30,215 nt of DNA from a virus. The position numbers were made by a program, and so were the translations under genes. The notes under the pieces are model-generated. The model made no database searches. It saw only the letters and a list, made by a program, of their open reading frames with translations, and was not told the origin of the DNA. The stretch lies in IMG/VR virus record IMGVR_UViG_3300049811_000134, positions 1 to 30,215 of that record. One strand, written 5' to 3'. Positions 496-27,829 of this stretch are shown piece after piece; the first letter of the stretch is position 1; the number at the start of each line of letters is the position of its first letter.

Positions 496-1019
496 GCCGC
501 AAGCGCTGCCACCGCCGCGTGTGGGTGCCGCAGCCACCGCGCGGCCTGCGGCCCAAGCTCAGCCGCGACCAGGTCACGGACCTGGCGCTGGCGCACATCG
601 TCAACCTGGACGACATTGCCCGCGGCCAGGCCACCGCAGACACGCTCTGGCAGACCGTGGGCGGCGTGCTCACCTGGTCGCGCGTCGCCGCGCTGCGCGG
701 CGAGCTGGTGGCCGAGATGACCGAGCAACTCGACGTCCTGACCAGCGTGGTGGAGCGCTACCGCCGCACCGGCCGCGTGGGCTTCAGCGGCACCGAGTAC
801 CAGCTGGCCAAGCGCGGCGTCCAGCTCATGGACGACCTGGCCGAGCGCGTGGACCGCGCCACCGCCACCGCGGCGGCAGATTGGGCTGAGGCGCGGGTCA
901 ACGCGTGGGCGGCGCAGTGCAGCGAGGTGGCGGTATGCGCGCCGCTTAGGTGGCATGTGACACCCAACGAAAAGGGTAACCGGCCTGCGCAGGCCGAAGG
1001 CCGTAGCGGGTCCGGTTGA
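492..1019 (+). CDS. Phage conserved protein whose C-terminus runs into the attC array
   Basis: The ATG at 492 overlaps the previous stop, giving 175 residues. The body (about residues 1-148) resembles small phage proteins of Burkholderiales: a basic N-terminus, then GLRPKLSRDQVTDLALAHIVNLD, a VGGVLTWSRVA segment and a C-terminal helix with AAADWAEARVNAWA. The last roughly 20 codons lie inside the first attC-like repeat (962-1033) and read as low-complexity NEKGNRPAQAEGRSGSG. I infer that the original stop was lost, or the tail replaced, when the cassette array joined the phage genome. Function is unknown. It is the last phage gene of the plus-strand unit. Confidence 0.7.
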   Translation: MSRKRCHRRVWVPQPPRGLRPKLSRDQVTDLALAHIVNLDDIARGQATADTLWQTVGGVLTWSRVAALRGELVAEMTEQLDVLTSVVERYRRTGRVGFSGTEYQLAKRGVQLMDDLAERVDRATATAAADWAEARVNAWAAQCSEVAVCAPLRWHVTPNEKGNRPAQAEGRSGSG

Positions 1020-1033
1020 CCCGCCTGTTCGGC
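962..1033 (+). other. attC-like site a (left edge of array, degenerate R' box)
   Basis: R'' is ACCCAAC at 962-968. The right end has TTGACC, five bases, then GTTCGGC at 1027-1033, matching the spacing of TTGACC-GAGGA-GTTAGGC in site b but with one base off the GTTRRRY consensus. Internal AACCGG/CCGGTT arms and a GGCCTGCGCAGGCC palindrome give secondary structure. It overlaps the 3' end of the phage gene at 492-1019. Confidence 0.65.
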
Positions 1034-1059
1034 CTCACCTGGCCGAAGCGAGAGGACTG

Positions 1060-1401
1060 ATGAACACTTACGACACCGACGACCGCCGCCTGAACGTGGG
1101 CACCTTTTGGGGCAACCTGCGCGCCGTGCTGCGCCGCTGGATGGACCGCGAGCGCGAGCTGGTGAGCCTGCGCAACGCCGTGGGCATGATGAGCGAGGCC
1201 CGCCGCGCCGACGCCGCCGAGTGGCACGACATGCGCGAACTGAACCGCGAGATGCGTGCCGACGCGCTGCGGCTGCGCTGGCTAGCCGACGACCACGCCG
1301 ACCCGGAGACGTGCGAGCGCGTGCGCTCAATCTGTCAGAGCCTGCCGACGCGCAGCATCAGCGGCGTGCGCCTGGACATTGACGCGGCGATGCGCCCGTG
1401 A
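1060..1401 (+). CDS. Cassette 1: phage-like protein, function unknown
   Basis: This 113-residue protein begins at an ATG preceded by GAGAGGA. The N-terminal half is helical and charged (RRWMDRERELVSLRNAVG), compatible with a short coiled coil. The C-terminal half (RLRWLADDHADPETCERVRSIC, then LDIDAAM) resembles small phage proteins I have seen in proteobacterial prophages, which have no assigned function. The TGA stop lies just before the R'' box of attC b. Its 5' leader shares the pattern GGCCTCA..CCT..CCGAAGCGAGA with cassette 6, suggesting a common origin of cassette 5' ends. Confidence 0.75.
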   Translation: MNTYDTDDRRLNVGTFWGNLRAVLRRWMDRERELVSLRNAVGMMSEARRADAAEWHDMRELNREMRADALRLRWLADDHADPETCERVRSICQSLPTRSISGVRLDIDAAMRP

Positions 1402-1402
1402 G

Positions 1403-1506
1403 GCCTAACGTTCGAGGTAACGCGCCCACAAGGGCCGAGGAGATGCACGATGAACAGCACTGAGCAGGCCGGCCCTTGTGGGTCGCCGTTGACCGAGGAG
1501 TTAGGC
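1403..1506 (+). other. attC-like site b
   Basis: R'' is GCCTAAC (1403-1409) with L'' region TTCGAGGTAA. L' is TTGACCGAGGA, followed by R' GTTAGGC (1500-1506). A perfect 12-bp internal stem pairs 1425-1436 with 1471-1482. The 34-nt loop contains GAGGAG and an ATG at 1450 that reads through R' into cassette 2. Confidence 0.9.
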
Positions 1507-1815
1507 GCGTGGGTGCCGACTGCAGACACAGCACGCCTGCCACCGTTTGACGTGCCGGTGTGGGTGTACGAAGACGGCTACTGCTACATCGCGTGCCGAG
1601 CCGACGACAGTGACGGATGGTTGTGGGCAAAGTGCTACACGCTGCCGTACTTGGACAAGGCCGGGCGCTGGCAGACGGTGGACGCCGAGATTGACGACGA
1701 ATACCTGCCGACGCTGTGGCAGCCGCTGCCGGAGCCGCCGCGCTACAACCAAGCCGCCCTAGACGCTGCCAAGCTCGAAGCCGCCGCGATGTTTGCGGAC
1801 CTGCGGGTGGAGTGA
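1450..1815 (+). CDS. Cassette 2: DUF551-type protein
   Basis: The protein has 121 residues if started at the ATG at 1450, which has a good GAGGAG Shine-Dalgarno but lies inside attC b. A GTG at 1513, just after R', would give about 100 residues but has no ribosome-binding site. The core has LPPFDVPVWVYEDG early, then GRWQTVD, and ends LWQPLPEPP. That WxPLPEPP ending, after a VPVxVY strand, is the signature of DUF551 (PF04448-type) proteins, small proteins common in phages and prophages and of unknown function. It is followed at eight bases by the collapsed attC c. Confidence 0.75.
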   Translation: MNSTEQAGPCGSPLTEELGAWVPTADTARLPPFDVPVWVYEDGYCYIACRADDSDGWLWAKCYTLPYLDKAGRWQTVDAEIDDEYLPTLWQPLPEPPRYNQAALDAAKLEAAAMFADLRVE

Positions 1816-1822
1816 CACAAGC

Positions 1823-1841
1823 GCCTAACGACCAGTTAGGC
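1823..1841 (+). other. attC-like site c, collapsed to R''-R' hairpin
   Basis: The sequence is GCCTAAC, five bases, GTTAGGC: a perfect 7-bp stem with a 5-nt loop. It occupies the position of an attC between two cassette ORFs but has lost L'', L' and the variable terminal structure. I infer a deletion by replication slippage across the folded site. It is unlikely to be a normal integrase substrate. Confidence 0.75.
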
Positions 1842-1848
1842 CCTGGCT

Positions 1849-1904
1849 CCGAAGCGAAGTAGTGCAACCGTACTAGGACTAAACGACGTGGATAAGCAAA
1901 AACT
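1849..1904 (+). repeat. 56-bp cassette leader repeat, copy 1
   Basis: This copy is identical to 3938-3993 except for one AG/GA swap; the right-hand 45 bases are perfectly conserved. It begins CCGAAGCGA, contains GTACTAGGACTAAAC and includes the GTG start and first codons of the cassette-3 ORF. It is AT-richer than its surroundings, so it could hold a promoter or translation signal, although no convincing -35 box is visible. Confidence 0.85.
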
Positions 1905-2331
1905 GGAAGATGCGCGGCAGCTTGCGATGAGCATGACCTCGCACCCCGTGGCCTTCGGGACCATTGAACACACGGAGCGGGCCGGCGAGTTGCTGGGCTT
2001 GCTGTGGCAGGAAGTGCTGCGGCTTGAGCGCGACCTGAAGGACGCGCTGGAGCCGCAGAGCCCGAACACCGCTGACGGCCCCGTGGCGCTGGAGCTTTCT
2101 TGGGTGCCGCTGAACAAGCGCGACCTGAACTGGCACGCGCACGCGACCGTGCAACTGCGGTCCATGCACGCAGCACTGAACGCAGCCGAGAAGACCCCGC
2201 GCGACCCGCTGGAGATTGAGGAACTGTGGGACGAGGCGAACGAGCTGGCGACAGGCGAAGGCGCGGAACCGCACGAGTTGTTTGCGCGCCTGCTGGAGCG
2301 CGCGCACGGGATTGGAGTTGAGCATGGCTGA
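1888..2331 (+). CDS. Cassette 3: unknown protein, paralogue of cassette 6
   Basis: This 147-residue protein starts at a GTG fixed by the conserved 56-bp leader; stops close the frame upstream, and AGGA lies about 10 bases before the start. The first 34 residues match cassette 6 at 24 positions (MDKQKL, ARQLA, SHPVA, TI-H-E-AG), after which the two proteins diverge into helical, charged sequence. The C-terminal part (EIEELWDEANELATGE, then AHELF-like helices) is acidic. No known domain is recognised. The stop overlaps the ATG of the next ORF by eight bases, so this is a two-gene cassette. Confidence 0.75.
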   Translation: MDKQKLEDARQLAMSMTSHPVAFGTIEHTERAGELLGLLWQEVLRLERDLKDALEPQSPNTADGPVALELSWVPLNKRDLNWHAHATVQLRSMHAALNAAEKTPRDPLEIEELWDEANELATGEGAEPHELFARLLERAHGIGVEHG

Positions 2332-2602
2332 CGGGAACATCACGGTGGAAGTGAGCACACAGGCGGCGCAGGCCGAGCTACAACGCCTGCGCGCCGACAA
2401 CGCAGCCCTAAGACGCGAGGCGCACGCATGGTGGGAAGCCGCACGCAATGCGACCAAAGCCGAAACCGAGCGCTGCGCGCTGGTGGCCGCACTGCACAGC
2501 CAGTACCCCGTGACGACGGACTACGACAGGGGCTACGCGAAGGCGCGCGCGGATGCTGCGGCGGCGATTCGCTTGGGGCCTAACGTTCGAGGTAATGCGT
2601 GA
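2324..2602 (+). CDS. Cassette 3, second gene: small coiled-coil protein
   Basis: The ATG at 2324 lies inside the end of the preceding ORF, a coupled arrangement. The 92-residue protein has a helical N-terminal half with a heptad-like AELQRLRADNAALRREAHAW segment (coiled coil likely), and then DYDRGYAKARADAAAAI, a pattern seen in many small phage proteins of unknown function. The last eight codons and stop lie within attC d. It probably oligomerises through the coiled coil; beyond that nothing can be said. Confidence 0.65.
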   Translation: MADGNITVEVSTQAAQAELQRLRADNAALRREAHAWWEAARNATKAETERCALVAALHSQYPVTTDYDRGYAKARADAAAAIRLGPNVRGNA

Positions 2603-2679
2603 CACACGGCGCTGACCAAGCATGCAAAACGCGACACGGCAACCCGCCGTGTGGCATCGCCTTGACCGAGGAGTTAGGG
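2578..2679 (+). other. attC-like site d
   Basis: R'' is GCCTAAC (2578-2584) with L'' TTCGAGGTAA identical to site b. L' is TTGACCGAGGA, followed by GTTAGGG (2673-2679); the last base departs from the R' consensus. A 9-bp internal stem pairs 2603-2611 with 2645-2653. Confidence 0.88.
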
Positions 2680-2701
2680 CTCTTGTTGGAGTGGGACTTG
2701 T

Positions 2702-3397
2702 ATGCCTGAGAAGGTGGTGATCGGAGGCGCGACACTTTGGCACGCCAACTGCCTGGAGGTGCTGCCAGGCTTGCCGAAGCACGACTTGCTGTGCACGGAC
2801 CCGCCTTACGGGATTGGTGCAGGCGCGGCCAACTTTCGCAGCGGCACGCGGAAGAACGACCCAACGTACACCTACGGCGAGTGGGACGCTGAGCCGCCAA
2901 AGCGCTGGCTGCTGGACATGATGCTGGACCATGCAAGCGCGGCGATTGTGTGGGGCGGCAACTACTTTGGCTTGCCGGCTAGCCGCTGCTGGCTGGTGTG
3001 GGACAAGTGCACCGGCGACAACAGCTACGCCGACGCCGAACTGGCCTGGACGAACATTGACGCCACCGTGCGCGTGCTGAAGCACCCCTGGAGTGGCGCC
3101 AACGCGAAAGAGCGCGGCGAGGAAAGGCTGCACCCTACACAGAAGCCGCTGCGCGTGATGGGCTGGAGCCTTGAGCGCGTGGCTGGCGCCAGGACAGTGT
3201 TGGACCCGTTCATGGGCAGCGGCACGACTGGCGTTGCCTGCATGCAGCTAGGCCGCGAGTTCACTGGCATAGAGCGTGAACGCCGGTACTTTGACATAGC
3301 GTGCGAGCGGATACAGCGCGCACACGATCAGGGCGTGCTGCTGCCGCCAGAAACTGCTGGCACGCCACAACAGGCGGGGCTGGCGCTAGAGCCCTAA
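2702..3397 (+). CDS. Cassette 4: beta-class DNA methyltransferase
   Basis: The protein has 231 residues. Catalytic motif IV, TDPPYG, is at residues 32-37; HPTQKP is at 144-149; and the S-adenosylmethionine-binding motif I, DPFMGSGTTG, is at 168-177. Motif IV before motif I is the order of beta-class amino-methyltransferases (N6-adenine or N4-cytosine, PF01555). DPPY favours adenine, but the base and target sequence cannot be read. The length is short but complete for the stand-alone phage type. No restriction endonuclease is adjacent, so it is an orphan, plausibly protecting phage DNA from host restriction or marking it. The start has GGAG upstream, and the TAA stop is the one inside the R'' box of attC e. 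Confidence 0.93.
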   Translation: MPEKVVIGGATLWHANCLEVLPGLPKHDLLCTDPPYGIGAGAANFRSGTRKNDPTYTYGEWDAEPPKRWLLDMMLDHASAAIVWGGNYFGLPASRCWLVWDKCTGDNSYADAELAWTNIDATVRVLKHPWSGANAKERGEERLHPTQKPLRVMGWSLERVAGARTVLDPFMGSGTTGVACMQLGREFTGIERERRYFDIACERIQRAHDQGVLLPPETAGTPQQAGLALEP

Positions 3398-3451
3398 CGC
3401 TACAGCTCACCTGCCGGCCGTAGGCCGGTCAGGTGCAGCGAGGGGTTAGGC
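3392..3451 (+). other. attC-like site e
   Basis: This is a classical 60-bp site: CCCTAAC (3392-3398; first base off the RYYYAAC consensus) to GTTAGGC (3445-3451). The centre is a nearly perfect stem, CACCTG-CCGGCC pairing with GGCCGG-CAGGTG, with one unpaired T and a 3-base loop. The TAA in R'' is the methyltransferase stop. Confidence 0.88.
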
Positions 3452-3488
3452 GCGTGCCCCGATTCACGCGCCAATGGTGGAGAGCCAC

Positions 3489-3848
3489 ATGGGAACGAGA
3501 GCAGATTTCTACATCGGTCGCGGCCAGGATGCCGAGTGGCTGGGTTCGGTGGCCTGGGACGGCTACGAATGGGAAGCCGACGACAGCGACCTGATGCAAG
3601 CGAAGACGGCCGACGAGTTCCGCGCAGCGGTGGCCGCCATCGAGGCCGAGCGCGACGACTTCACCGCGCCCGCCGAGGGCTGGCCTTGGCCCTGGGACGA
3701 CAGCAACACGACGGACTACGCCTACGTGTTCCACGACGGCGCGGTGACGATCCCGGACGGCCGCGTGGACTGGCTGCCCAACATGGCTGCCCGCAAGAAC
3801 GTGCAGTGGGGCAGTAAGAAGGGCGGCATTCTGGTGGTGGGCGGATAA
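3489..3848 (+). CDS. Cassette 5: small acidic protein, function unknown
   Basis: The ATG at 3489 is chosen because GGAGAG precedes it at good spacing; an in-frame ATG at 3474 would add five residues without a clear ribosome site. The 119-residue protein begins MGTRADFYIGRG, continues AEWLGSVAWDGYEW, and has a GWPWPWDDS motif followed by TDYAYVFHDGAV. I believe proteins with this MGTRADFY-GRG/AWDGY/WPWPW pattern occur in phages and mobile elements, but no function is known to me. It is rich in Asp, Glu and Trp, and such acidic proteins sometimes mimic DNA, but this is only a thought. Confidence 0.8.
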   Translation: MGTRADFYIGRGQDAEWLGSVAWDGYEWEADDSDLMQAKTADEFRAAVAAIEAERDDFTAPAEGWPWPWDDSNTTDYAYVFHDGAVTIPDGRVDWLPNMAARKNVQWGSKKGGILVVGG

Positions 3849-3850
3849 GC

Positions 3851-3927
3851 GCCTAACGCCCGAGTTCAGCCGCCCACGGAGGGCGCGCAGCGGCCGTAGT
3901 GGGTCGCGCTGGAACGAAGTGTTAGGC
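3851..3927 (+). other. attC-like site f (closest to classical type)
   Basis: GCCTAAC (3851-3857) is followed by GCCCGAGTTCAGC. The right end is GGAACGAAGT-GTTAGGC (3921-3927). These are the textbook L'' and L'-R' patterns of mobile integron cassettes. The site is 77 bp and starts two bases after the cassette-5 stop. Confidence 0.93.
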
Positions 3928-3937
3928 CTCAACCTAC

Positions 3938-3993
3938 CCGAAGCGAGATAGTGCAACCGTACTAGGACTAAACGACGTGGATAAGCAAAAACT
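3938..3993 (+). repeat. 56-bp cassette leader repeat, copy 2
   Basis: This is the second copy of the leader at 1849-1904, with the same spacing to a GTG start. Its 5' neighbour GTTAGGCCTCAACCT also resembles the start of cassette 1 (GTTCGGCCTCACCT, then CCGAAGCGAGA at 1043). Confidence 0.85.
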
Positions 3994-4330
3994 CGATGAA
4001 GCGCGGCAGTTGGCGCACAGCATGATTTCGCACCCGGTGGCCTACAGCACGATTGACCATGTGGAGAAGGCCGGCGACACGATAGTGGACATGCTGTCTG
4101 AACGCGTGGTGCTGGTGGCCCAGGTCAATGCCTTGCGGGCCGCGCTGGCGAAGGTGCTGGACGCTGGCAACCGTGAGGCGGCGGCCACCATGAGCTGGCA
4201 AAACGCCCGCGAGAACTTCAGCGACAGCAGCCACGAGCGCAAAGCACACGAGCGCGCCATGCTGGCCGCCAGCGAGGCCGAACGCGAGGCCCACGTACTG
4301 CTGGCAACGCTGAAGCGTATTGGGGCCTAA
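3977..4330 (+). CDS. Cassette 6: unknown protein, paralogue of cassette 3
   Basis: This 117-residue protein starts at the GTG in the shared leader. The N-terminal 34 residues match cassette 3 (24 identical), and the remainder is different and strongly helical (LVAQVNALRAALAKVLDAGN, then ERKAHERAMLAASEAEREAH), likely a coiled coil. The conserved head with a variable tail suggests a common functional module with exchanged C-termini. The TAA stop is the one embedded in the R'' box of attC g. No known domain is recognised. Confidence 0.75.
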   Translation: MDKQKLDEARQLAHSMISHPVAYSTIDHVEKAGDTIVDMLSERVVLVAQVNALRAALAKVLDAGNREAAATMSWQNARENFSDSSHERKAHERAMLAASEAEREAHVLLATLKRIGA

Positions 4331-4438
4331 CACCCCAGGTAACTTGCCCGCCACGCGCGGGCGGAAGGCGTGACATGGAAGCTGACAAGGTGGCGCCCAC
4401 AGGCGCCGTGGCGGGTCAAGTTGAACGAGGGGTTGGGC
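4325..4438 (+). other. attC-like site g
   Basis: R'' is GCCTAAC (4325-4331). The right end is GTTGAACGAGGG-GTTGGGC (4432-4438), a good L'-R' pair. CCGCCACGCG and GGCGCCCAC...GTGGCGGG segments give internal pairing. The variable region holds GGAAGG and an ATG at 4375 that is open through R' into cassette 7. Confidence 0.88.
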
Positions 4439-4653
4439 CGCTTGCTGGGCCGAACCCGCGCCGCATGCTGCGCGCCGCGCGACTGTGCGAGGAACTTGGA
4501 CACGGCGGCGACACGCTGGCGGCGTTGGAGCACATGAAACGCATGGAAACCGCGCTAAAGGTGCTGCACATATGGGCTGCATTCCCGCCGCTGGACGGGC
4601 GCCAAGTGCGCGAGCTTTGTGCCCGAGCGCTTAAAGCGGATGAAGCGGCCTAA
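4375..4653 (+). CDS. Cassette 7: small helical protein, function unknown
   Basis: The ATG at 4375 has a GGAAGG ribosome site six bases upstream but lies inside attC g, giving 92 residues whose first 20 or so come from the recombination site. The next in-frame ATG, at 4465 (62 residues), has no Shine-Dalgarno. The part beyond 4465 is helical: MLRAARLCEELGHGGD, LAALEHMKRMETAL, then VRELCARALKADEAA. The TAA stop is inside the R'' box of attC h. No family is recognised. Confidence 0.6.
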   Translation: MEADKVAPTGAVAGQVERGVGPLAGPNPRRMLRAARLCEELGHGGDTLAALEHMKRMETALKVLHIWAAFPPLDGRQVRELCARALKADEAA

Positions 4654-4746
4654 CGTGCTGGTGAGCCGACAAGGAGGCGCTGATGAGTGACCGAAGCGAG
4701 ACGAAGCCGCCCGCCGACGAAGGTCGGCTCGACCGGCGTGTTAGGC
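4648..4746 (+). other. attC-like site h
   Basis: GCCTAAC (4648-4654) to GTTAGGC (4740-4746), 99 bp. An internal 8-bp stem pairs GAGCCGAC (4663-4670) with GTCGGCTC (4723-4730). The loop carries AAGGAGG and an ATG at 4683 that is open through R'. CCGAAGCGA, the 9-mer of the cassette leaders, also occurs here at 4691. Confidence 0.85.
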
Positions 4747-4874
4747 GCGATGCGGAGACGGACGAGCGCCGGGAAGCGCAGCGCAAGCGGCTGGCCGAGC
4801 TGTTGCAAGGCCGCAAGCAGACGCCGCTGAAGTGGAACGAGTTTGGCAACTATCCGCTGACGGAGATGGAATGA
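4683..4874 (+). CDS. Cassette 8, first gene: small basic protein starting inside attC h
   Basis: This 63-residue ORF has a strong AAGGAGG Shine-Dalgarno and an ATG at 4683, both in the loop of attC h. Downstream of R' there is no in-frame ATG or GTG before the last residue, so if the ORF is translated this start is the obvious one. The protein is highly charged (RLDRRVRRDAETDERREAQRKRLAELLQGRKQ) and ends PLTEME. The stop overlaps the next ATG (ATGA), supporting real translation and coupling. No domain is recognised. Confidence 0.55.
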   Translation: MSDRSETKPPADEGRLDRRVRRDAETDERREAQRKRLAELLQGRKQTPLKWNEFGNYPLTEME

Positions 4875-5122
4875 CGCGCGCCGCCTGGGGCTCTCGACGC
4901 GATGCGGTGCTGGCATACCTAGCCGAGCCGCACACGAAGCAGGATCTACTGAAGTGGGGCGGCCCGCCGGCGCTGCATTGCGCATGGTGGCTGAAGAAGA
5001 CTGGCCGCGTGGAGTGCCGCCGCGTATCGCACTACGTGTGGCTGTGGCAGGCAACCGTTGAGCCGGCCACGAAGCCGAGCAACGATGGTGGCGCCGCACT
5101 GATGGCAGCGTGGAGCGCCTAA
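4871..5122 (+). CDS. Cassette 8, second gene: small winged-helix-like protein, function unknown
   Basis: The ATG at 4871 overlaps the preceding TGA. The protein has 83 residues. RRDAVLAYLAEPHTKQDLLKWGGPPALHCAWWLKKTGRVECRRVSHYVWLWQ has the look of a small winged-helix fold: helix, helix, recognition helix ending in LKKTGRV, then two strands. This is an inference from pattern only, and DNA binding is therefore possible but unproven. The TAA stop is inside the R'' box of the last attC. Confidence 0.65.
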   Translation: MTRAAWGSRRDAVLAYLAEPHTKQDLLKWGGPPALHCAWWLKKTGRVECRRVSHYVWLWQATVEPATKPSNDGGAALMAAWSA

Positions 5123-5187
5123 CTCGTCGCTACGCGAACCGTGAAAAGTCGCCGCGCTAACCGTCGCCCATCGCGCAGCCGTTGGGC
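5117..5187 (+). other. attC-like site i (right edge of array)
   Basis: R'' GCCTAAC (5117-5123) is clear and carries the stop of the preceding ORF. The best right end is GTTGGGC at 5181-5187, which fits GTTRRRY, but the internal stem is weak, so the site may be truncated or diverged where array and phage DNA meet. The following 54 bases (5188-5241) up to the Rz1 stop hold no gene and no clear terminator. Confidence 0.6.
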
Positions 5188-5241: not shown

Positions 5242-5526
5242 CTACCGCGGCCACGCCCCCACAAGCCCCCGATGCCGCGCCCGGCACTCCGCCGCCGCCG
5301 CCTCGCGCTGGGCCACGATGTCGAGCACGACGCTGACGGGCAGATCGCCGGGCGGGTAGTCCGGCCCCGGCCAGCACGGCGCGGCTAGGCTCGCGGGCGG
5401 CGGGTCAATCACCGGCCGGATCGGCGCCGGCGTCGCGCAGGCGGTCAACAGCGGCAGCAGGCACCAGCACGTCACCCACGGCCACCGGAGCGCCTGTAGG
5501 GCACGCCAGGGGCCGGCGCAGAGCAT
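5242..5526 (-). CDS. Outer-membrane spanin lipoprotein (Rz1-like)
   Basis: The protein has 94 residues from the ATG at 5526. A hydrophobic signal (WVTCWCLLPLLTAC) ends in a lipobox with the lipidated Cys at residue 30, followed by a proline-rich stretch (PAPIRPVIDPPPASL) typical of Rz1 outer-membrane spanin subunits. It starts inside the Rz gene in another frame and extends beyond its end, a common overlapped spanin arrangement. With the Rz partner it would span the periplasm and fuse the inner and outer membranes at the last step of lysis. It is the most distal gene of the minus-strand late unit and borders the cassette array. Confidence 0.88.
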   Translation of the reverse strand: MLCAGPWRALQALRWPWVTCWCLLPLLTACATPAPIRPVIDPPPASLAAPCWPGPDYPPGDLPVSVVLDIVAQREAAAAECRARHRGLVGAWPR

Positions 5527-5776
5527 CAGCGAGGTCACGGCGCAGCCCCGGCAGCCGGGCCTCGATGCGCCGGCGCTGCGCCTCGTGGCGCGTGGCCGCG
5601 GCCTGGGCCAGTCGCTGAGCCTCGGCGCGCAGCTCGGCCGCCTGGCGCTCGCGCTGCAGCTCGGCGACATCCCAGCGGGCCTGCACCCGGCCGGCGCCCA
5701 GGTGCCAGCCGCCCGCGGCGGCCGCCAGCAGCAGGGCCAGCGCGGCGGCGTAGGGCCACAGGCGCAGCCACGTCAC
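5405..5776 (-). CDS. Inner-membrane spanin (Rz-like)
   Basis: The GTG at 5776 overlaps the endolysin stop (GTGA), giving 123 residues; a GTG at 5797 is less likely. A single N-terminal transmembrane segment (LWPYAAALALLLAAAAGGWHLG) is followed by a long helical periplasmic domain rich in Arg, Glu, Gln and Ala (residues about 30-90), as in Rz proteins. The position just after the endolysin and the embedded lipoprotein gene confirm the assignment. The product acts in the inner membrane with the Rz1 partner to disrupt the outer membrane. Confidence 0.88.
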   Translation of the reverse strand: MTWLRLWPYAAALALLLAAAAGGWHLGAGRVQARWDVAELQRERQAAELRAEAQRLAQAAATRHEAQRRRIEARLPGLRRDLADALRRPLACPTGAPVAVGDVLVPAAAVDRLRDAGADPAGD

Positions 5777-6279
5777 TGCACCCCCCGGCCTTCGCACAGC
5801 GCGCGCTCCTCAGCGCGGCGCGTCACCAGGCCGCTGCAGCGGTTCGCCGGGTCGCGGCAGTCGCGGCCCTGGAAGTAGGTCCAGCGGTCGTACTGCGCGC
5901 ACGCCTCGGCGTAGCGGCCGGCGTTGGTCAGCCGCACCAGCGTCGAGCTGCAGGCGGCCGCCGGCCCCACGTTGTAAGCCCAGCGTACCAGCGCGTCGTA
6001 CTCGTGCTGGTGCAGCGGCGCCGTGACGCACCCGCGCAGCTCGCCCTCGAACTGCCGCACGTCGCGCAGCTTGGCCTGCAGCGCCGGGACCGGGGCAGTG
6101 GTGTCTCCCATCTGCACGGGCGTGCCGTCTGGCCGCCGCGTGGTGCCGAAGCCGACTGTCGGGACATCGCCGGGCAGCGGCCGCACGGCGCGATCGGTGT
6201 AGCCCTCGTGCACGGCCAGGCCCACCAGCGCGGCCGCGCTCAGGCTCAGGGCGGAGATGGCGACGCGGGCGCGTATCAC
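5773..6279 (-). CDS. Endolysin, GH24 lysozyme with SAR-type signal
   Basis: The protein has 168 residues. The N-terminal segment (VAISALSLSAAALVGLAV, residues about 6-23) is weakly hydrophobic and rich in Ala, Gly and Ser, as in signal-arrest-release endolysins. It leads straight into HEGYTD with catalytic Glu25. PGDVPTVGFGTT follows, carrying Asp38 and Thr41 in the place of the catalytic region of P21-type lysozymes. It cleaves peptidoglycan glycan strands in the periplasm after release from the membrane. The start overlaps the holin stop and the stop overlaps the Rz start, so the lysis genes form a coupled cassette. Confidence 0.92.
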   Translation of the reverse strand: MIRARVAISALSLSAAALVGLAVHEGYTDRAVRPLPGDVPTVGFGTTRRPDGTPVQMGDTTAPVPALQAKLRDVRQFEGELRGCVTAPLHQHEYDALVRWAYNVGPAAACSSTLVRLTNAGRYAEACAQYDRWTYFQGRDCRDPANRCSGLVTRRAEERALCEGRGVQ

Positions 6280-6539
6280 TGCCGGCCCTCAAGCTGGCTG
6301 GCCTGCTCCTCGAGCAGCCGAATGCGCGCTTGGCTCTCGCGCTCCTCGCGCCGGTCGCGGCGCCACGTGGCAGCGATCTGCACCACCAGGCCGGCCACGC
6401 CGACCATGATGCCGACGACGACCGCGGCATCGCTTGTGGTCAGCCAGCCGAGCACGCTGCCCACGGCTCCCACGTAGGCGCTCTTGCTGCCCATCTCGAT
6501 GGCCGCCTGCTCGGCGGCGTGGTGCGCTGGCTGCGTCAT
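6276..6539 (-). CDS. Putative holin
   Basis: The protein has 87 residues from the ATG at 6539, which overlaps the preceding stop. Two hydrophobic segments are visible: SAYVGAVGSVLGWLT and, stronger, AAVVVGIMVGVAGLVVQIAATW. They are followed by a basic, charged tail (RRDRREERESQ) and a helical end. Size, two membrane helices with a short turn, a charged C-terminus and placement directly before the endolysin all fit a class II-type holin, or pinholin given the SAR-type endolysin. Membrane lesions formed by it would trigger endolysin release. The assignment rests on topology and context. Confidence 0.82.
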   Translation of the reverse strand: MTQPAHHAAEQAAIEMGSKSAYVGAVGSVLGWLTTSDAAVVVGIMVGVAGLVVQIAATWRRDRREERESQARIRLLEEQASQLEGRQ

Positions 6540-6829
6540 CGCTGCACCATCCGGAAGTTGATCGTCTGCTCGTCCGTGTCGCCCTGCGCCGTGGTCCACC
6601 GCAGCGTCACGCTGGCCGGCTGGCCCACGGTGCCGCCCGTCACGCGGCACTGCACCGACGATGCGACGTAGGTGGGTTGATCGGCCGTCACGCCCACCTG
6701 GGCCGCGATGCTCACGCCGGTGATGCTGTCGCCGGCCGCCAGGCGGTCGCGCACGTCGAAGCCATAGCGCAGCGTGGTGTGCGGGTCGCGGTCGATGGTG
6801 TAGATGCCGCCCACGAGGGTGTAGCTCAT
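6536..6829 (-). CDS. Small beta-rich phage protein, fibre-tail adaptor-like
   Basis: The protein has 97 residues. The sequence starts DPHTTLRYGFDVRDRLAAGDSITG and ends with alternating strands and GDTDEQTINFRM. The pattern of D-L-Y-F-D, then L-x-x-GDSI, and a final TxxGxTDEQTI strand recalls a family of Ig-like proteins found near tail-fibre and lysis genes of siphoviruses, described as fibre-tail adaptors. The match is by memory, so the function is tentative. It overlaps its neighbours on both sides by four bases. Confidence 0.6.
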   Translation of the reverse strand: MSYTLVGGIYTIDRDPHTTLRYGFDVRDRLAAGDSITGVSIAAQVGVTADQPTYVASSVQCRVTGGTVGQPASVTLRWTTAQGDTDEQTINFRMVQR

Positions 6830-10106: not shown

Positions 10107-13100
10107 TTAAGAGTTAGGCCAGGCCGGCACCCAAAACGTGCTCCCGCCGTGGCGCACCTCCAGCCACACGTTGGTGCTGGCGGCGCCGGGTTTGTTGTTC
10201 GGGTTAAAACTTGCCGTTGCGGCTCCAACGGTTGTGTTACCGATTTCCGCTCGCTGCGCGCCGATGCTCCGCGCCCAGTTCGTATTGCTTTCGCCGCCCA
10301 CCGTGCTGGCGGCCGATGCGCCGTCCGCCCAGCCGGCCGTTGCGACGTTGAGGTTTGCCACGCGCGTGGTGCTGGCGACCGTGAACGGCGCGGTGCCGGT
10401 GGAGACGGTGCTTTGGATCTGATGCTCGAAGCGCGACGGCAGCGAGCCGCGGGCGTGTACCGCGTAGACGTCGCCCGCGAGCGTTACCGCCGAACCGCTG
10501 TTGAAGCACTCGGCCTCGATGGCTTCGCCGCCGATGCTGCGCGCGAACACGGCCACGCCAGAACCGCCGTGCCGCGCTTCGATGGCCCTGGCGGTGTTCT
10601 TCTCGCTGTTGGCATACAGGCCCACCATCACCGGCGATGCGCTTGGGATGTCCACGTACATCGCCGCGGCGGCGGACCCGGTGCCCATGCTGGCGACCGT
10701 GTTGCCGCTGGCGTCGGCCGTGAACAGCCCGCCGGCGTTCATAAACACCCGCTGCCCGCTCGCTGCCGTGCGGATCGTGGCCCCCGTCACCGTGCCCGCC
10801 GTGATGCTTCCCAAGTCCGCCGCAATGGCCGACAGTTGCGCCACCCGGAAGTAGGACAGGTACGGCGTGCTCCAGGTGGTAGTCGTGGACCCAGCCGGCT
10901 GCGTGCCATCGGTCTGGAACTGTGCCTGCGTCCCCGTCAGCGTCACCGGCGTGGCGCTCCAGCCGGCCGGCGTGGCGCCGTTGGTGGTGTTGCCTGGCGT
11001 GGCCGGCGTCGCGCTGCTGTTGGCCGCGGCGATGTAGGCCAGGAACCGGCTCGCGCCCGTGCTGCCGGCCGGGCCGGTGGCGCCTGTGGCACCGGTGCTG
11101 CCGGTGGCGCCGGCCCGAGCCTTCGTCAGCCGCTGCACTTTGCTCAAGCCGAAGGCGGCGCCCGTGAGCGTGCGGCCGGTGATGGCGAACGCGATGCTGG
11201 CCACGTCCGCGGTCATCGCGCTGGCGTTGGCCGTCTGCGCGTTGCTGCCGCTGGCGCTGATGGCGCCGGGCGTGATGTTGGTGCCGCTGGCGCTCACCGT
11301 CCAGCGGCCGGCGGCCGTGCCCACGCCGTCGTAGATGAGCACGTTGGTGCCCTCGGCCACGGCGATGATGGTGCCGCTCTGCGCGAAGCTGGTGACGGTG
11401 CCGGCGCTGTCTGCGGGCACGGCGTGCGCCTCGTTGGTGAGGGCCGCCACCAGCGCGCTGCTGCCCTGGTCCACGCGCAGCACGGTGGCGCTGTCGCTGC
11501 TGCCGCTGAGGCTGGCCGTCACCGTGACGTAGCGCGTGCCCGCGTAGGTCACGAACTGCGCCGCGCTCATGGTGCGGGTGTTGCCCGTGCCGGAGAGCGT
11601 GACCGGCCCCAGGTTCGTGCCGTCGGCGGTGAAGGCCGTGGCGCTGAAGCTGACGGTGCCGCTCAGGTTCTGGAGCGCGGCCGTGAAGGTGATGGCGCCG
11701 GTGCCGCTGGTGGTGGCCGCGGCGTCGGCGAACACGAAGGCGAAGTTGCTCTGGCTCAGCGTCAGCAGCGCGGCGCCGCCGGAGACGTCGGTGTGCGTCA
11801 CCGTCACGCTGGCGGGCGTGCTTTCGTTGCCCGAGCGGTCGCGGTGCACGGCCCACAGGGTGATGCTGCCGGGGGCCGGCGGCGCCCACACGAAGAACGT
11901 GGCCAGGCCGGTGTAGATGCGCGTGCCGGCGGCCCAGCTGGCGCCGTGGCGCACCTCGGTCTCGGCGTAGTCCGCAGCGGGGCACTCGTTCCAGGTCACG
12001 CGCTGGCCGCCGGGCACGCTGGTGGCGGCTAGGCCGGTCACGGCCGCGGGCGCGCCGTCGTCGCCCGCCGTCAGCACCGCGCGCTGGGCGCACCAGGCGC
12101 TGCGCACCGGCAGGGCAGACACGCTGCGCACCGCCACGGCCACGGCGCGGCCGGGCAACAGGTTGCGCAGGGTGTGCGCGGTGAGGCTGTCGGCGCGCAC
12201 GATGGCGGGCGCGACGTCGCTGTCCACGTAGCGCCACTGCACTTCCACCCACCCGCCCTGCTGCACGGCTTGGCTGGGGATGGGGTCCCACTCGGCCAGC
12301 ACCTGCGCCACCACGGCGCCGTCGGCCGCCAGCTCGGCGCTGGTGCTCAGCGCCAAGCCGGTGGGCACGGGCACCTGCCAGGGCGGCGGCAGGCCGGTAT
12401 TGGGCGCGGGGTCCAGGCCGCGCAGCTCGGCCAGCGGGGTGAAGATGGCGCTGGAGATCTCGGCCAGCTGCAGCTCCACGCCGCTGTCGGGGCTCCAGGT
12501 CCAGCCCACCACCTCCATGGGCTTGGCCGTCATGCCCAGGCGCGGCAGCGTGACGGCGGCCACGTCGAACAGCTCCACCGGCCAGGCGATGACGTTGCAG
12601 GTGGCGTCCATGCGCAGGCCGGCCTGCGCCTCGCGGATGAGGATGCTGCCCAGGTGCTGCGCGTGCGCGGGGTGGTTGACACCGGCCAGCCGCACCTCCA
12701 GCGGCAGCGGGTAGCCGTCGCGGGCGATCAGAACCGGGTCTTCGATGGCCGGGAACGGCAGCACCTGCCAGCGCTCGGCCGGGTGCGTGCAGGTGCCGGT
12801 GACGCGGGTCACGCGGCGGTCGCGCGGCGTGCCGCCGGCCACGCGCAGCACGGGCTCGTCGTCCGGGCTGCCGGTGCCGGCGTCCAGGCGCAGGGCCACG
12901 ACGCTGTCGTCCAGCGTCCACGCCGGCGCCGCGGCGGTGCCCGCGCGCAGGCGCAGCGTGCCGCCGGCCCAGCCCCAGCGGCCGGCCATGGTGGCCATGA
13001 TGTCGTCCCACACGGCCCGGGGCTCGGCGTCCAGCGGCACCACCAGGCCGCAGCGGTAGCGCGGCAGGGTGACGGTGGTGGTGGTGGTGTCCGGCAAGCG

Positions 13101-14108
13101 CAGCGTGAAGGCGGTGGACACGTCGCACGCATCGGCCGCGGCGGTGATGTCTGCGGTGCGGATGTCGCCGGCCGGCACGGCCCAGCCGTGGGCGTGGCGC
13201 GCGTAGTGGTAGGCCAGGACGGCGGGGTTCTCGGTCCACGCCGTGTTGCCCGTGCGCGGGTCCAGCACGCGGGCGCCGCGCAGCAGCGCGGTAATGTTGG
13301 GGATGCCCTGCGGGTAGACGTCCGGGTCGAAGACAAGGTCCACCACCGCCAGCGCGATGCCGGCGAAGCGGTCGGTGCTGGTGATCTTGCCGGGGTACTC
13401 TGCCGCCAGGTCGCCGCCCACGTTCTGCGTGGGCGTGCCGCGGTAGGTGCGGATGCGCGCCAGGCTCTGGCCGGCTGTGCGCTGCCACACGATGTTCGCC
13501 GCTTCGCCCACGATGCCGCCCGTAATGGTGGCGATGTTTCCCGACATTGACACCGACAGCGGCGCGTTCTGACGACCGCTCTCTGGCTCGGACTGGTTGA
13601 CCCACGCGCTCACGGTGCCGGCAACCACATTGCCCGCCAGCGTGACGGTGGCAGACCCGCCCACACCAAGGGCAACCTCTTGCTGCTCGCTTATCAGGTC
13701 AGACTTCTGCCACGGCGCGGTCTGCACCCAGCCGTTGCCGTCCAGGGTCAGCGGGATGTCGTCGAAGTAGAAGGTCTCGAAGCCGTCGATCTCGTGTCCG
13801 GCGAAGGACACGATCAGCGTCAGGCGCTCGCTGTTGGTGCCGCTGGTCCAGCGGCGGCGCACGCCTTCCACGGTGCGCGCGCGGCCCAGCACCAGCGTGC
13901 GCGGCGCGTCGGGCTGCAGGTCCAGCATCACCTGCCGGTCGCGCTGCGCGGCGTTGTAGGCGTCGCGGCTGTCGCGCTCCATGCGGCGCTTCTGGTTGCG
14001 GTAGTCGACGGCGCTGGCTGCCACGCTGGCGGCGAAGTACCACCAGTTGCCGGTGACAGCCGCGGCGATGTTCAGCGCGGCGCCGATGAGCTGGCGGAAC
14101 AGGCTCAT
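10107..14108 (-). CDS. Tail tip protein J-like, host specificity
   Basis: The protein has 1333 residues, the largest in the window. The N-terminal part has a short hydrophobic segment (residues about 8-33), a basic linker and TLVLGRARTVEGVRRRW, as in J-type central tail-tip proteins. The middle (about 250-530) carries the conserved tail-tip region with WDDIMATMAGRWGWAGG. Roughly 575-790 is fibronectin-III-like (PTGLALSTS..., VTGLAATSVPGGQRVTWNE). Near residue 1000 there is a short collagen-like run of G-x-T/G-x-x triplets that would trimerise the fibre. The C-terminal 250 residues form a variable receptor-facing region. The gene overlaps its upstream neighbour by four bases. The J-like role rests on size, order and these motifs. 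Confidence 0.88.
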   Translation of the reverse strand: MSLFRQLIGAALNIAAAVTGNWWYFAASVAASAVDYRNQKRRMERDSRDAYNAAQRDRQVMLDLQPDAPRTLVLGRARTVEGVRRRWTSGTNSERLTLIVSFAGHEIDGFETFYFDDIPLTLDGNGWVQTAPWQKSDLISEQQEVALGVGGSATVTLAGNVVAGTVSAWVNQSEPESGRQNAPLSVSMSGNIATITGGIVGEAANIVWQRTAGQSLARIRTYRGTPTQNVGGDLAAEYPGKITSTDRFAGIALAVVDLVFDPDVYPQGIPNITALLRGARVLDPRTGNTAWTENPAVLAYHYARHAHGWAVPAGDIRTADITAAADACDVSTAFTLRLPDTTTTTVTLPRYRCGLVVPLDAEPRAVWDDIMATMAGRWGWAGGTLRLRAGTAAAPAWTLDDSVVALRLDAGTGSPDDEPVLRVAGGTPRDRRVTRVTGTCTHPAERWQVLPFPAIEDPVLIARDGYPLPLEVRLAGVNHPAHAQHLGSILIREAQAGLRMDATCNVIAWPVELFDVAAVTLPRLGMTAKPMEVVGWTWSPDSGVELQLAEISSAIFTPLAELRGLDPAPNTGLPPPWQVPVPTGLALSTSAELAADGAVVAQVLAEWDPIPSQAVQQGGWVEVQWRYVDSDVAPAIVRADSLTAHTLRNLLPGRAVAVAVRSVSALPVRSAWCAQRAVLTAGDDGAPAAVTGLAATSVPGGQRVTWNECPAADYAETEVRHGASWAAGTRIYTGLATFFVWAPPAPGSITLWAVHRDRSGNESTPASVTVTHTDVSGGAALLTLSQSNFAFVFADAAATTSGTGAITFTAALQNLSGTVSFSATAFTADGTNLGPVTLSGTGNTRTMSAAQFVTYAGTRYVTVTASLSGSSDSATVLRVDQGSSALVAALTNEAHAVPADSAGTVTSFAQSGTIIAVAEGTNVLIYDGVGTAAGRWTVSASGTNITPGAISASGSNAQTANASAMTADVASIAFAITGRTLTGAAFGLSKVQRLTKARAGATGSTGATGATGPAGSTGASRFLAYIAAANSSATPATPGNTTNGATPAGWSATPVTLTGTQAQFQTDGTQPAGSTTTTWSTPYLSYFRVAQLSAIAADLGSITAGTVTGATIRTAASGQRVFMNAGGLFTADASGNTVASMGTGSAAAAMYVDIPSASPVMVGLYANSEKNTARAIEARHGGSGVAVFARSIGGEAIEAECFNSGSAVTLAGDVYAVHARGSLPSRFEHQIQSTVSTGTAPFTVASTTRVANLNVATAGWADGASAASTVGGESNTNWARSIGAQRAEIGNTTVGAATASFNPNNKPGAASTNVWLEVRHGGSTFWVPAWPNS

Positions 14109-14677
14109 GGCCGCAAGAAGAAGCTGCGCGCCGGCCAGACGATGGGCGCGGCGTCGGTTGCGGGGTCGCCAGCCAGCGACGTGTCGCCGGGGTACAGGCG
14201 CTGCTGCTCGTCGTTGGTGTAGCGGCTCGACTTGGCGCGCAGGGCCACGGTGCCGCGGTGCTCAGCCGTCAGGCTGATGGTGGCGGTGCGGCCGTCGGCC
14301 AGGCTGGGCACGTTCAAGCGGCCGGCCCAGCACAGCACGGCATCGGCCACGGCGCCGGTGTCGGGGTCTACCAGCGCGTCCCACACGCGCAGGGCGGTGC
14401 CCTCCACGTCCTCAGACAGCGCCAGGGCCACGGCGTCGGGCGTCACGCCAGGCAGCGTCAGGGCCAGGCCGGGCATCTCCGCGGCGCTGTCCTGCACGGG
14501 CTCGATCACCAGGCCCAGCGGCTCCCAGGTGTGGCCGCCCCACGTCAGGGCATGCCCGGCGGTGGTGTAGCGTTCCACCACGGGGAAGCTCATCTCCACC
14601 AGGCGCACCATGGGCACCTGTTCGCCGGCCTGCAGGCGGGCCAGCAGGGCGGTGGCGGCGGTGTTCAGCGCGCGCAT
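14105..14677 (-). CDS. Minor tail protein, DUF2163-like
   Basis: The protein has 190 residues. RLVEMSFPVVERYTTAGHALTWGGHTWEPLGLVIEP at residues about 26-61 is typical of tail-hub proteins that follow the distal tail protein. The rest is strand-rich (ALRVWDALVDPDTGAV, LSLTAEHRGTVALRAKSSRYTNDEQQRLYPGD). The last motif, RYTNDEQQRLYPGD followed by a short Pro/Trp-containing end, is commonly seen in this class (DUF2163 or similar). It sits between a minor tail gene and the J-like gene, in the place of lambda L or K. No NlpC/P60 peptidase gene is visible at this position. Confidence 0.7.
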   Translation of the reverse strand: MRALNTAATALLARLQAGEQVPMVRLVEMSFPVVERYTTAGHALTWGGHTWEPLGLVIEPVQDSAAEMPGLALTLPGVTPDAVALALSEDVEGTALRVWDALVDPDTGAVADAVLCWAGRLNVPSLADGRTATISLTAEHRGTVALRAKSSRYTNDEQQRLYPGDTSLAGDPATDAAPIVWPARSFFLRP

Positions 14678-14678
14678 C

Positions 14679-15275
14679 TCAGAACACCTCGAGCAGGCTG
14701 ATTTCCGGCCCGAGCTGCACGCGGGGGGCGACGTACTCCGCCACGAAGCCGCCCACCAGCTGGAAGGTGCCGGTGGGCTGGTTCCACACCACCGCCGTGC
14801 CGTTCGTCACCGTCAGCCGCAGCGGCATCACCAGCGGCACCACAGCCACGCCGCTGCCGTTGGCCGTGGCGTTGCTGGCGGCCTGCACCAGCTGGCCGCC
14901 CACGCCCAGCATGTCGCCGGCCAGCAGCGTGGCGCCGGGGGTGGTGTTCACGGTCAGGCTGGTGGCGCCCCGGCTGGCGGCGCTGGCCGTGGGGTTGCCG
15001 CGCAGCGTGCCCAGCGGCACCGGCCGCGCGAAGTGCCACAGGCGCACCCAGTCGCCGCTGCGGGCCAGGGCGGACAGGAAGGCCTCGCGCGCGCCGGCCT
15101 GCTCCGCACGGGCCACGGGCAGCGTCATGGTCACGCGCCAGCGGTCAGCCAGGTGCGAGATGCGCTGCGCCTGCCCGGTGTAAGCCGCGCTCCACGCGGC
15201 GCCCTGGCTCTGCACGCTCCAGCGCATGGTGGCGGGCGTGGCCCAGCGCTGGGCCGGCCAGTCCAGCGTGGCCAT
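14679..15275 (-). CDS. Minor tail protein (distal tail type)
   Basis: The protein has 198 residues and starts on the base where the tape-measure stop ends. The N-terminal half (ATLDWPAQRWATPATMRWSVQSQ, then WRVTMTLPVARAEQAGAREAFLSALARSGDWVRLWHFARPVPLGT) reads as a beta-rich distal-tail-like fold. An inserted small domain follows (TSLTVNTTPGATLLAGDMLGVGGQLVQ), with a closing strand ending LGPEISLLEVF. Position directly after the tape measure fits a distal tail or hub component that connects the tube to the tail tip. Confidence 0.72.
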   Translation of the reverse strand: MATLDWPAQRWATPATMRWSVQSQGAAWSAAYTGQAQRISHLADRWRVTMTLPVARAEQAGAREAFLSALARSGDWVRLWHFARPVPLGTLRGNPTASAASRGATSLTVNTTPGATLLAGDMLGVGGQLVQAASNATANGSGVAVVPLVMPLRLTVTNGTAVVWNQPTGTFQLVGGFVAEYVAPRVQLGPEISLLEVF

Positions 15276-17287: not shown

Positions 17288-17290
17288 GCG

Positions 17291-17901
17291 TCAGCTCCCC
17301 TCGTCTTCCTTCGGCGGCTTGTAGGCCGCGATCACGCGCAGGCGGTCCATCAGGCCCTCCACGTCGGCGATGCCCAGGTACTCGCGCACCAGGTCGAAGC
17401 CGGCCCACTGCACGGCGCCGTGCCCGTTGTGCAGTAGGTTCCATGCGCTGATGGCGACCCTGTCAGCCGGGTCGCAATCGGGCGGGTCCTCGCCGTCCCA
17501 TGTGACGCCGTGCTGCGCATCGAGCAGGGCCCTTAGCCGTTTCCCAGCGCGGCCTTGCGCTGCAGGTGTGCGGTGATGGCCTCGGCCAGCGCGTTGGCAC
17601 AGGCCTGGACGGCGTCCAGGTTGTCGCGCACGTACTCGCCCCACAGGTCGGCGTCGAACGGCAGCGGCTCGCTGTTGCCCGCAGGGCCGATCAGGCTCGC
17701 CTCGGTGAAGCCGGCCCAGTCCACCGCGCAGGCGGCCACGTCTTCCACCTGCACGCCGGCCGTGAAGCGCGGCATCTCGGCCTCCAGCGGGCGCTGCAGC
17801 TGCACGCGCAGGCCGCCCTGCAGGTCCACCCAGAAGCGGCGCTGCTCGCGCAGGGCGCGCAGCGCGTCGCGCACCAGCGGGGGCTTGCTGTCGGCCATCA
17901 C
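17291..17901 (-). CDS. Tail assembly chaperone long form (gpGT-like) by -1 frameshift
   Basis: The ribosome reads the short chaperone frame from 17901 to the heptamer at 17539-17545, slips back one base, and continues in the next frame to 17291. The product would be about 203 residues: 121 from the first frame and 82 from the second (RLRALLDAQHGVTWDGED ... YKPPKEDEGS). The second frame has no convincing start of its own: upstream it is only shadow sequence, while meaningful protein begins right at the slip site. The long form would bridge the short form, tail tube and tape measure during tail assembly, as gpGT does in lambda. The acidic C-terminus is typical. Confidence 0.85.
17533..17901 (-). 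CDS. Tail assembly chaperone short form (gpG-like)
   Basis: The 122-residue product ends in AALGNG just after the slippery heptamer. The sequence is mixed alpha/beta, with RRFWVDLQGGLRVQLQRPLEAEMPRF at residues about 21-46 and a helical C-terminal half. Position between tail tube and tape measure, the small size and the frameshift site at its end define the role more surely than sequence resemblance. It coats the tape measure before tube polymerisation and is not in the mature virion. It overlaps the tail-tube gene by four bases. Confidence 0.85.
   Translation of the reverse strand: MMADSKPPLVRDALRALREQRRFWVDLQGGLRVQLQRPLEAEMPRFTAGVQVEDVAACAVDWAGFTEASLIGPAGNSEPLPFDADLWGEYVRDNLDAVQACANALAEAITAHLQRKAALGNG
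17539..17545 (-). promoter_or_regulatory. Programmed -1 frameshift slippery heptamer
   Basis: On the minus strand the sequence is G GGA AAC in the zero frame (CTG GGA AAC GGC TAA), a canonical X XXY YYZ heptamer. The zero-frame stop follows one codon later, and the -1 frame is open for 82 codons. It is placed exactly where lambda-like phages frameshift. Confidence 0.88.
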
Positions 17902-27392: not shown

Positions 27393-27829
27393 CAGTCAGT
27401 GCCGGTCGCTTCCCAGGGCCGAGCACCAGCAGCACGCGCGCCCGCCTTCGTCGCCGCCGTCTTCTCCGTGTAGCGCGCCGACGGGCACAGCCTGAGCTTG
27501 ACGGCCATCTGCGCCATTGCGCTGGCCTGCGAGGTCAGCACCTGGTGCGTCGGGTTGACGTACTCGCGGCCCTTGTCGTCCATGCACGTCATGCCGCGCG
27601 ACTCCATGTCAGCCGCCGCGCGCTTGTAGAACGTCGCCGCCACGCAGTACGCAGCAAGCAGCGGCACGTCGCCAGGACGGAAGTAGTCGGCCGGCAGCGA
27701 GTCCACGATCGCGCGCCACTCGTCGGCCTGCGCTTCAGTCAAGTGCGGCGGCGGCGCAATGCGGCTGCCCGACACCGGGACCACGGACAGCAGATCGCCC
27801 GTTGATTTACGGCCCCGTTTCGTCGTCAT
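27392..27829 (-). CDS. Terminase small subunit, P27 family
   Basis: The ATG at 27829 gives 145 residues; the earlier in-frame start has no good context. It begins TTKRGRKSTGDLLSV, followed by PPPHLTEAQADEWRAIVDSLPADYFRPGDVPLLAAYCVAATFYKRAAADM, the signature of P27-type small terminases. It then continues NPTHQVLTSQASAMAQMAVKLRLCPSAR. It recognises the phage packaging site and loads the large subunit. The HNH gene upstream is a frequent partner of this terminase type. Confidence 0.92.
   Translation of the reverse strand: MTTKRGRKSTGDLLSVVPVSGSRIAPPPHLTEAQADEWRAIVDSLPADYFRPGDVPLLAAYCVAATFYKRAAADMESRGMTCMDDKGREYVNPTHQVLTSQASAMAQMAVKLRLCPSARYTEKTAATKAGARAAGARPWEATGTD

Follow-up and report, generated by a model that had tools for sequence, protein, structure and literature searches.

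The window analysed here is the whole of a 30,215-base virus fragment from IMG/VR (record IMGVR_UViG_3300049811_000134), in which a series of integron-type attC recombination sites, with small genes between them, sits between a short early operon (+) and the late genes (-) of a tailed phage. This series is probably a phage cassette array, made up of inverted units that each consist of an attC and a gene, which occupies the 3' end of the early-left operon, meets the late operon head-on, and is moved by an integron integrase. Sequence comparison supports this reading in several ways: primary sequence, a bulged stem, and covariation identify the window sites as attC; many other phages show this architecture, with genes of a phage-type pool; and closely related phages differ by single units, the breakpoints coinciding with the canonical R' cleavage box or being consistent with it.

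attC sites and inverted cassette genes

An attC covariance model (R1), whose 50 training attC all came from phages other than that of the window, recognized seven complete sites, all on the + strand and all within 962-4746, with E from 6e-12 to 6e-7. These are attC a (962-1033; 42.7 bits, E 4e-8), whose R' box GTTCGGC has one deviation, whose 10-bp stem carries a bulge, and which has a near-identical counterpart at phage locus L279:8486-8557; attC b (1403-1506; 46.1 bits, E 7e-9; bottom-strand fold z -4.9); attC d (2578-2679; 42.6 bits, E 4e-8); attC e (3392-3451; 60 bits, E 6e-12; fold z -4.2); attC f (3851-3927; 53.5 bits, E 2e-10); attC g (4325-4438; 37.4 bits, E 6e-7; fold z -3.5); and attC h (4648-4746; 44.8 bits, E 1e-8; 11-bp stem). 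Two further + strand elements are incomplete. A collapsed, 19-nt remnant at 1823-1841 (GCCTAAC-5 nt-GTTAGGC) retains both outer boxes with 5 nt between them (R1 E 0.23), and a degenerate or truncated attC at the right end of the array (5117-5187) has boxes without a stem, a fold z of +1.0, and an R1 match (E 0.012) on the wrong strand.

An independent scan for boxes plus a bulged stem returned six sites, all on + in 962-4746 and zero elsewhere in the 30 kb; under the same scan, 60 dinucleotide-shuffled versions of the window yielded 0.97 sites on average and never more than 3. Over 574 kb of related phage loci, R1 gave six matches at E<=0.1, confined to the array loci L098, L131, and L137. Rfam at gathering thresholds gave no match in the window. 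The boxes R'' RYYYAAC and R' GTTRRRY, with complementary pairing, are present in the seven complete sites (three with one consensus deviation) and the two remnants, and the sites show the L''/L' stem with one extrahelical base, 5/6-nt spacers, and a variable terminal structure. Read on the gene strand, the extra base can be placed in L' for six of the seven complete sites (a, b, d, e, f, and h). Two-sided changes were seen in 7 of 8 stem pairs of the R1 training alignment; because the training sites had been picked for complementarity, this covariation is supportive and not independent.

An earlier note on this DNA had described nine attC-like repeats in one orientation. The single orientation stands, and seven of the repeats hold as complete sites at E<=6e-7 under a model free of window sequences, whereas 1823-1841 and 5117-5187 are remnants only. 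Its further description, with open reading frames (ORFs) between the repeats, phage genes on both sides, and no integrase in the contig, agrees with what was found. With seven attC and no PF00589 domain, the window thus holds a cluster of attC sites lacking integron integrase (CALIN), defined by at least two close attC without the integrase.

The orientation of the genes sets this cluster apart. In a class 1 control (plasmid p23), the aadA1 attC, which the phage-trained model found at E 6e-10, and IntI1 both lie on +, the aadA1 and dfrA15 genes lie on -, and the extra base is in L'' when read along the gene. Chromosomal arrays of the Rubrivivax type follow the same rule: the longest ORF is opposite the attC match in 68 of 86 cassettes (median 142 vs 76 aa), with 39 Pfam families on the strand opposite the match vs 1 on the other. 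In phage arrays, the longest ORF lies on the attC-match strand in 144 of 200 cassettes, and PHROGs assigned 40 families on the match strand and 0 among 108 opposite-strand ORFs. Counted by contig with at least three cassettes, 26 of 30 viral contigs and 0 of 10 bacterial contigs are inverted. Every cassette ORF of the window, the methyltransferase included, is on the same strand (+) as the attC matches. The canonical cassette, in which a gene is followed by its own attC in the gene's orientation and is read from the cassette promoter (Pc), is therefore not what the window contains, since its genes are inverted.

Arrays and integron integrases in other phages

Viral contigs were gathered by attC half-sites, of which the 18-mer GCCTAACGTTCGAGGTAA retrieved six stretches and the more general GCCTAACGTTYGAGCTAA retrieved 117. 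The model placed about 470 attC in the 115 viral loci scanned, and at least two tandem attC occur in 74 of the IMG/VR viral contigs tested. Some contigs have 15-20 sites: 20 in G357, 18 in G337 (in two arrays), and 15 each in G018 and G361. A phrog_2 terminase is encoded in 18 of 33 array records, G018 carries terminase, portal, and head genes of other families, and further array records have tape measure, tail fibre, or head genes. The array strand is opposite that of the terminase large subunit (TerL) in about 16 of 20 comparisons (binomial p 0.012), and in G018 an operon with a single-strand annealing protein (SSAP; phrog_3290) runs straight into the array. Together with the window, these observations indicate that arrays come last in the early-left operon and converge on the late operon. 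Two records have arrays on opposite strands: G337, with attC at 640-5024 (-) and 12560-16767 (+), and G361, with arrays at about 2829-4388 (+) and 25100-29288 (-).

Loci L131 and L137 have the endolysin of the window (L137 also a homologue of its early gene g83) and carry attC at the corresponding locus, and L130, 91-95% identical to L137 in the flanks, has zero attC. The array locus in L130:7100-9700, L131, L137, and L169 is hypervariable, with repeated small early genes that have LREAAQQALEALE-type starts in common.

Comparison of close relatives reveals the gain or loss of single units. L137 has one extra unit over L131, an attC plus an 86-aa ORF, and the junction falls within the 9 nt GCCTAACGT, which, when orientation is taken into account, is by sequence the canonical R' cleavage box. 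On the gene strand the mobile unit consists of an attC and the gene after it, precisely as canonical R' cleavage predicts if the attC is inverted relative to the gene. L309 vs L220 and L270 vs L308 also differ by one unit each with otherwise near-identical neighbours; the range of their breakpoints includes the R' box and is blurred by 57-60 nt of similar attC. Cassettes are also shared between different phages. The window ORF c6 recurs as a cassette in another phage, L084, whose array adjoins replication genes, with 96% protein identity and 93.5% DNA identity over 449 nt, and 14 of the 19 substitutions are at third codon positions. One HNH cassette is common to L092 and L210. Between L137:3827-4304 and L131:2371-2848, 478 nt comprising an attC and a 67-aa cassette are 99.8% identical, above the 94% and 85% of the flanks, which points to recent exchange.

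IntI was absent from the window, from 13 further viral records, and from 28 of the 30 array records. The remaining two, G347, which has a major head protein and tail genes, and G350, which has a primase, encode full-length IntI, and a search with both retrieved 27 IMG/VR contigs with IntI. When 26 such loci were scanned by the model, 51 of 51 attC were upstream of IntI and on the IntI strand. The IntI-attC geometry in these phages thus equals that of class 1, but the cassette genes read toward IntI. A reversed IntI had been considered and was dropped, the IntI-attC geometry being canonical and the genes flipped instead. In L366-L391 (e.g. L372, L386, L388, and L371), IntI stands directly downstream of the attC array on the same strand. 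A complete integron, with intI, attI, and Pc, is not present in the window, and IntI is present in its relatives L366-L391. In the nearest L366-L391 group, IntI is 70-100% identical to its G347 counterpart, as against no more than 63-64% for chromosomal IntI from the host family; nine records of cultured phages have IntI, each <60% identical. A prophage-like region of Rubrivivax (L363 = G036:C246:50001-70000), with gene names assigned by reading translations, contains a terminase, a replicative helicase, three attC (15124-15925, +), an IntI 75% identical to that of G347 (16266-17327, +), and a phage integrase (17866-18960, -) next to tRNA-Arg (19051-19125). With IntI in related phages, a host integrase is not the sole possible source of the activity.

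The gene pool of the arrays is likewise distinct. Phage cassettes encode DNA methyltransferases, HNH proteins, Mom-like modification, Lar restriction alleviation, NinX, dNMP phosphatase, and HTH regulators, and host cassettes on the correct strand encode GNAT acetyltransferases, gamma-glutamyl cyclotransferase, glyoxalase, DUFs, and ParE. In Rubrivivax-type integrons (L041-L083), a Thoeris ThsB-like TIR protein and a ParE toxin were seen as cassettes on the canonical strand. The half-site GCCTAACGTTCGAGGTAA, found in attC b and d, occurs in 43 bacterial genome stretches, mostly Rubrivivax and other Burkholderiales with attC arrays, and the window cassette proteins gave no match to those host loci. 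IntI scored above the NCBIfam cut-off in 7 of 8 tested genomes with GCCTAACGTTCGAGGTAA, and a close IntI is present in 126 of 301 genomes of the host family. At the level of sequence, the cassette pool is phage-specific and common to many phages.

Cassettes and flanking operons of the window

The cassette ORFs of the window, all on +, begin with c1 (1060-1401), of unknown function and with no Pfam family above cut-off, and c2 (1450-1815), a DUF551 protein (PF04448, 24.2 bits, cut-off 22). They continue with c3 (1888-2331), with an MDKQKL leader in common with c7; c4 (2324-2602), which overlaps the stop of c3; c5 (2702-3397), an N6/N4 DNA methyltransferase (PF01555, E 2e-17) whose homologues are also cassettes in L092 (53%) and L213/G337 (48%); and c6 (3474-3848), the conserved protein of unknown function shared with L084. 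The remainder are c7 (3977-4330), c8 (4375-4653), c9 (4683-4874; weak), and c10 (4871-5122). A near-identical leader agtgcaaccgtactaggactaaacgacGTGgataagcaaaaact (1850-1902 vs 3940-3993) precedes c3 and c7, after which the proteins diverge; this may reflect a duplicated cassette or a shared leader. The starts of c2 (1450), c8 (4375), and c9 (4683) lie inside the terminal loop of the preceding attC (b, g, and h), and attC length and gene start are thus coupled. Searched by blastn against cultured phages and plasmids, the window array gave methyltransferase fragments at most.

The flanks are those of a siphophage. To the left, the short early operon runs on + until about 956, and its last genes (83-956) are 83-328, an overlapping small ORF at 326-495, and 492 to about 956, whose frame continues into attC a and stops at 1019. 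Homologues of g83, 46-57% identical and on the strand opposite the lysis genes, occur in L104, L137, L169, and L172. The gene at 492-956 has a weak match to phrog_26767, and the searches used here found no relatives of it among IMG/VR records or cultured phages. To the right, the late genes on - extend from HNH and terminase through holin, endolysin, and spanin and end near 5242, the converging lysis genes (5242-6542, -; endolysin 5773-6279) matching the PHROG spanin, endolysin, and holin families. The HK97-type TerL (25875-27392, -) is 74% identical to that of Pseudomonas phage PAJU2. TerL, tail fibre, lysis, HNH, and RusA genes indicate a tailed siphophage with HK97-type packaging, in which portal and tape measure are assigned by position alone.

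PAJU2 and the Rubrivivax prophage suggest that the kin of the window phage are temperate; neither a phage integrase nor a repressor is present on the window fragment, and a tyrosine recombinase (PF00589) is likewise absent from this contig, itself a fragment. Relatives of the endolysin are absent among the TerL relatives of the window phage, which is therefore mosaic. Among 301 genomes of the host family, the best TerL relatives are <=53% identical, so that this set offers neither a close prophage nor an empty site of the window's own lineage.

Competing explanations and relation to known integrons

Several observations weigh against a phage cassette array moved by an integron integrase. The window contig is a fragment, and an integrase may be encoded elsewhere in the window phage; an array-free phage nearly identical to that of the window was not found. 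Because a single attC motif family led to nearly all of the arrays, the census is a biased lower bound. The ORF-length test is noisy in GC-rich DNA, with 56 of 200 phage cassettes pointing the opposite way and 4 of 30 contigs as exceptions. The two indels with blurred breakpoints, out of three, fit homologous recombination as well.

Such recombination is the alternative that survives best, although it is unlikely: the modules would be shuffled by a phage SSAP at attC-like relics, with no integrase involved. An array phage does encode an annealing protein (phrog_3290) beside its array, and 57-60 nt of similar attC blur the breakpoints of those two indels. However, the L131/L137 junction is confined to GCCTAACGT, which corresponds to the canonical R' cleavage box when orientation is considered; compensatory changes preserve the stem and its bulged base; and IntI stands at the array end in many relatives.

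Somewhat less likely still is that an ordinary stretch of host chromosomal integron was captured through illegitimate recombination, the phage being just a vehicle. This explanation has been published for phage CALINs (PMC9892861), the half-site GCCTAACGTTCGAGGTAA is typical of integrons of Rubrivivax and other Burkholderiales, and the genes in the CALIN of the published phage TJE1 are in the canonical direction relative to attC ('Virus Rctr41k' has zero attC under the model). Nevertheless, neither transfer nor inversion of an entire array can alter how its genes are oriented relative to attC, and the inverted cassettes are therefore not host cassettes ferried by phages; moreover, zero window cassettes match host loci, the gene content differs from that of host cassettes, and position and strand recur across unrelated phages. 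The suggestion of the earlier note that the phage acts as a vehicle for gene cassettes is incomplete on these grounds, because the genes are inverted relative to attC and come from a phage-specific pool and hence are not host cassettes in transit.

It is very improbable that the hairpins are terminators or RNA processing or attenuation elements that resemble attC by chance. They are intergenic, share one orientation, and have strong stems, and attC are thought to be weak terminators (PMC9892861), but the conserved outer boxes, the asymmetric bulge, the 6/5 spacers like those of the class 1 attC (model E 6e-10), the gain and loss of cassettes at the box, and the co-occurrence with IntI argue otherwise. 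An assembly chimera or mis-binned host integron, conceivable for a metagenomic fragment with the array close to the contig end, is equally improbable given phage genes on both sides, the recurrence of this layout in many contigs that encode a terminase or tail proteins, the attC of the related phages L131 and L137 at the homologous locus, an orientation unlike any host array, and a prophage in a bacterial assembly that shows the same.

CALINs in phages have been described before: Qi et al. (2023; PMC9892861) reported those of TJE1, P12002L, and PH101, with 17 CALINs in 10,705 genomes, and IntI1 recombined 5 of 6 tested phage attC into attI1. Hence that paper already covers CALINs of phages, methyltransferase cassettes, and the action of IntI1 on attC from phages, and the CALIN inside a tailed-phage genome that the earlier note had recognized is real but not the first of its kind. 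The present arrays resemble those CALINs as integrase-less attC clusters in tailed phages with small cassettes that include DNA methyltransferases. They differ in having up to 20 attC, a recurrent position, cassettes shared, gained, and lost, and IntI in some relatives, and, unlike in TJE1, their genes are inverted. Sedentary chromosomal integrons of Burkholderiales (Rubrivivax, Aquabacterium) have the same attC family, with IntI present and an equal IntI-to-attC geometry, but their attC are longer (mostly 125-132 nt), their genes canonical, and their cassettes of the acetyltransferase and glyoxalase type. The class 1 integron of p23 is alike in attC asymmetry and IntI-attC geometry, with its cassette genes on the opposite strand. 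Complete phage integrons (Vibrio phages p16/p42, Shewanella M16-3, P1 L-II) also combine IntI and attC in a phage; they are captured host or class 1 integrons with IntI <60% identical, whereas the IntI described here ends an early-left array with cassette genes reading toward it. In the atypical integrons of Treponema (PMC3607928), intI and cassette genes also share one direction. There, however, intI reads toward attI, with the cassettes following it; in the phages, by contrast, the cassette genes point toward IntI, and the flip relative to attC is theirs, not that of IntI. A flipped intI of the Treponema type is found neither in the relatives, whose geometry is that of class 1, nor in the window, which lacks IntI. 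In the literature covered, which leaves out many subscription papers and preprints, no report was found of inverted-gene arrays, cassette turnover between phages, or such an IntI arrangement, and the inverted, phage-specific form of CALIN appears to be new.

As to mechanism, an integron integrase that is either chromosomal in the host or encoded by the phage or by a co-resident integron phage would move the units singly. IntI, either phage-encoded or SOS-induced by infection, may recombine attC that are exposed as folded single strands while the phage replicates; in bacterial integrons, intI is known to be under SOS control (PMC8946536). The earlier note had proposed swapping through a host integron integrase, which is in keeping with the IntI of hosts that have the same attC type but is incomplete in that related phages encode their own. 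The inverted genes would most likely be read by transcription from the phage early-left promoter and not from the integron Pc. Selection for the readable direction would then explain the inversion, because this promoter is at the array end away from attI, whereas in bacteria the cassettes are expressed from Pc, which lies next to attI. That cassettes insert in a specific orientation has been described (PMC3607928). Inverted cassettes caught in a host integron would be antisense and hence silent, and phages would trade small anti-restriction and takeover genes among themselves. On balance we lean towards a phage-specific integron system, in which inverted early-gene cassettes would be expressed only in phage early operons, exchanged between unrelated phages by phage or borrowed host IntI, and silent in host integrons.

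These arrays bear on the question of how phages shuffle small early accessory genes, such as those for methyltransferases, restriction alleviation, and takeover, fast and cleanly. Module boundaries are usually invisible; here they are marked by recombination sites, so that single genes can be followed directly as they are gained, lost, or traded, and such events are testable with existing attC x attI assays. The integron would also come to be seen less as a device of bacteria in which phages are occasional passengers than as a phage-adapted device, with its genes flipped for a phage promoter.

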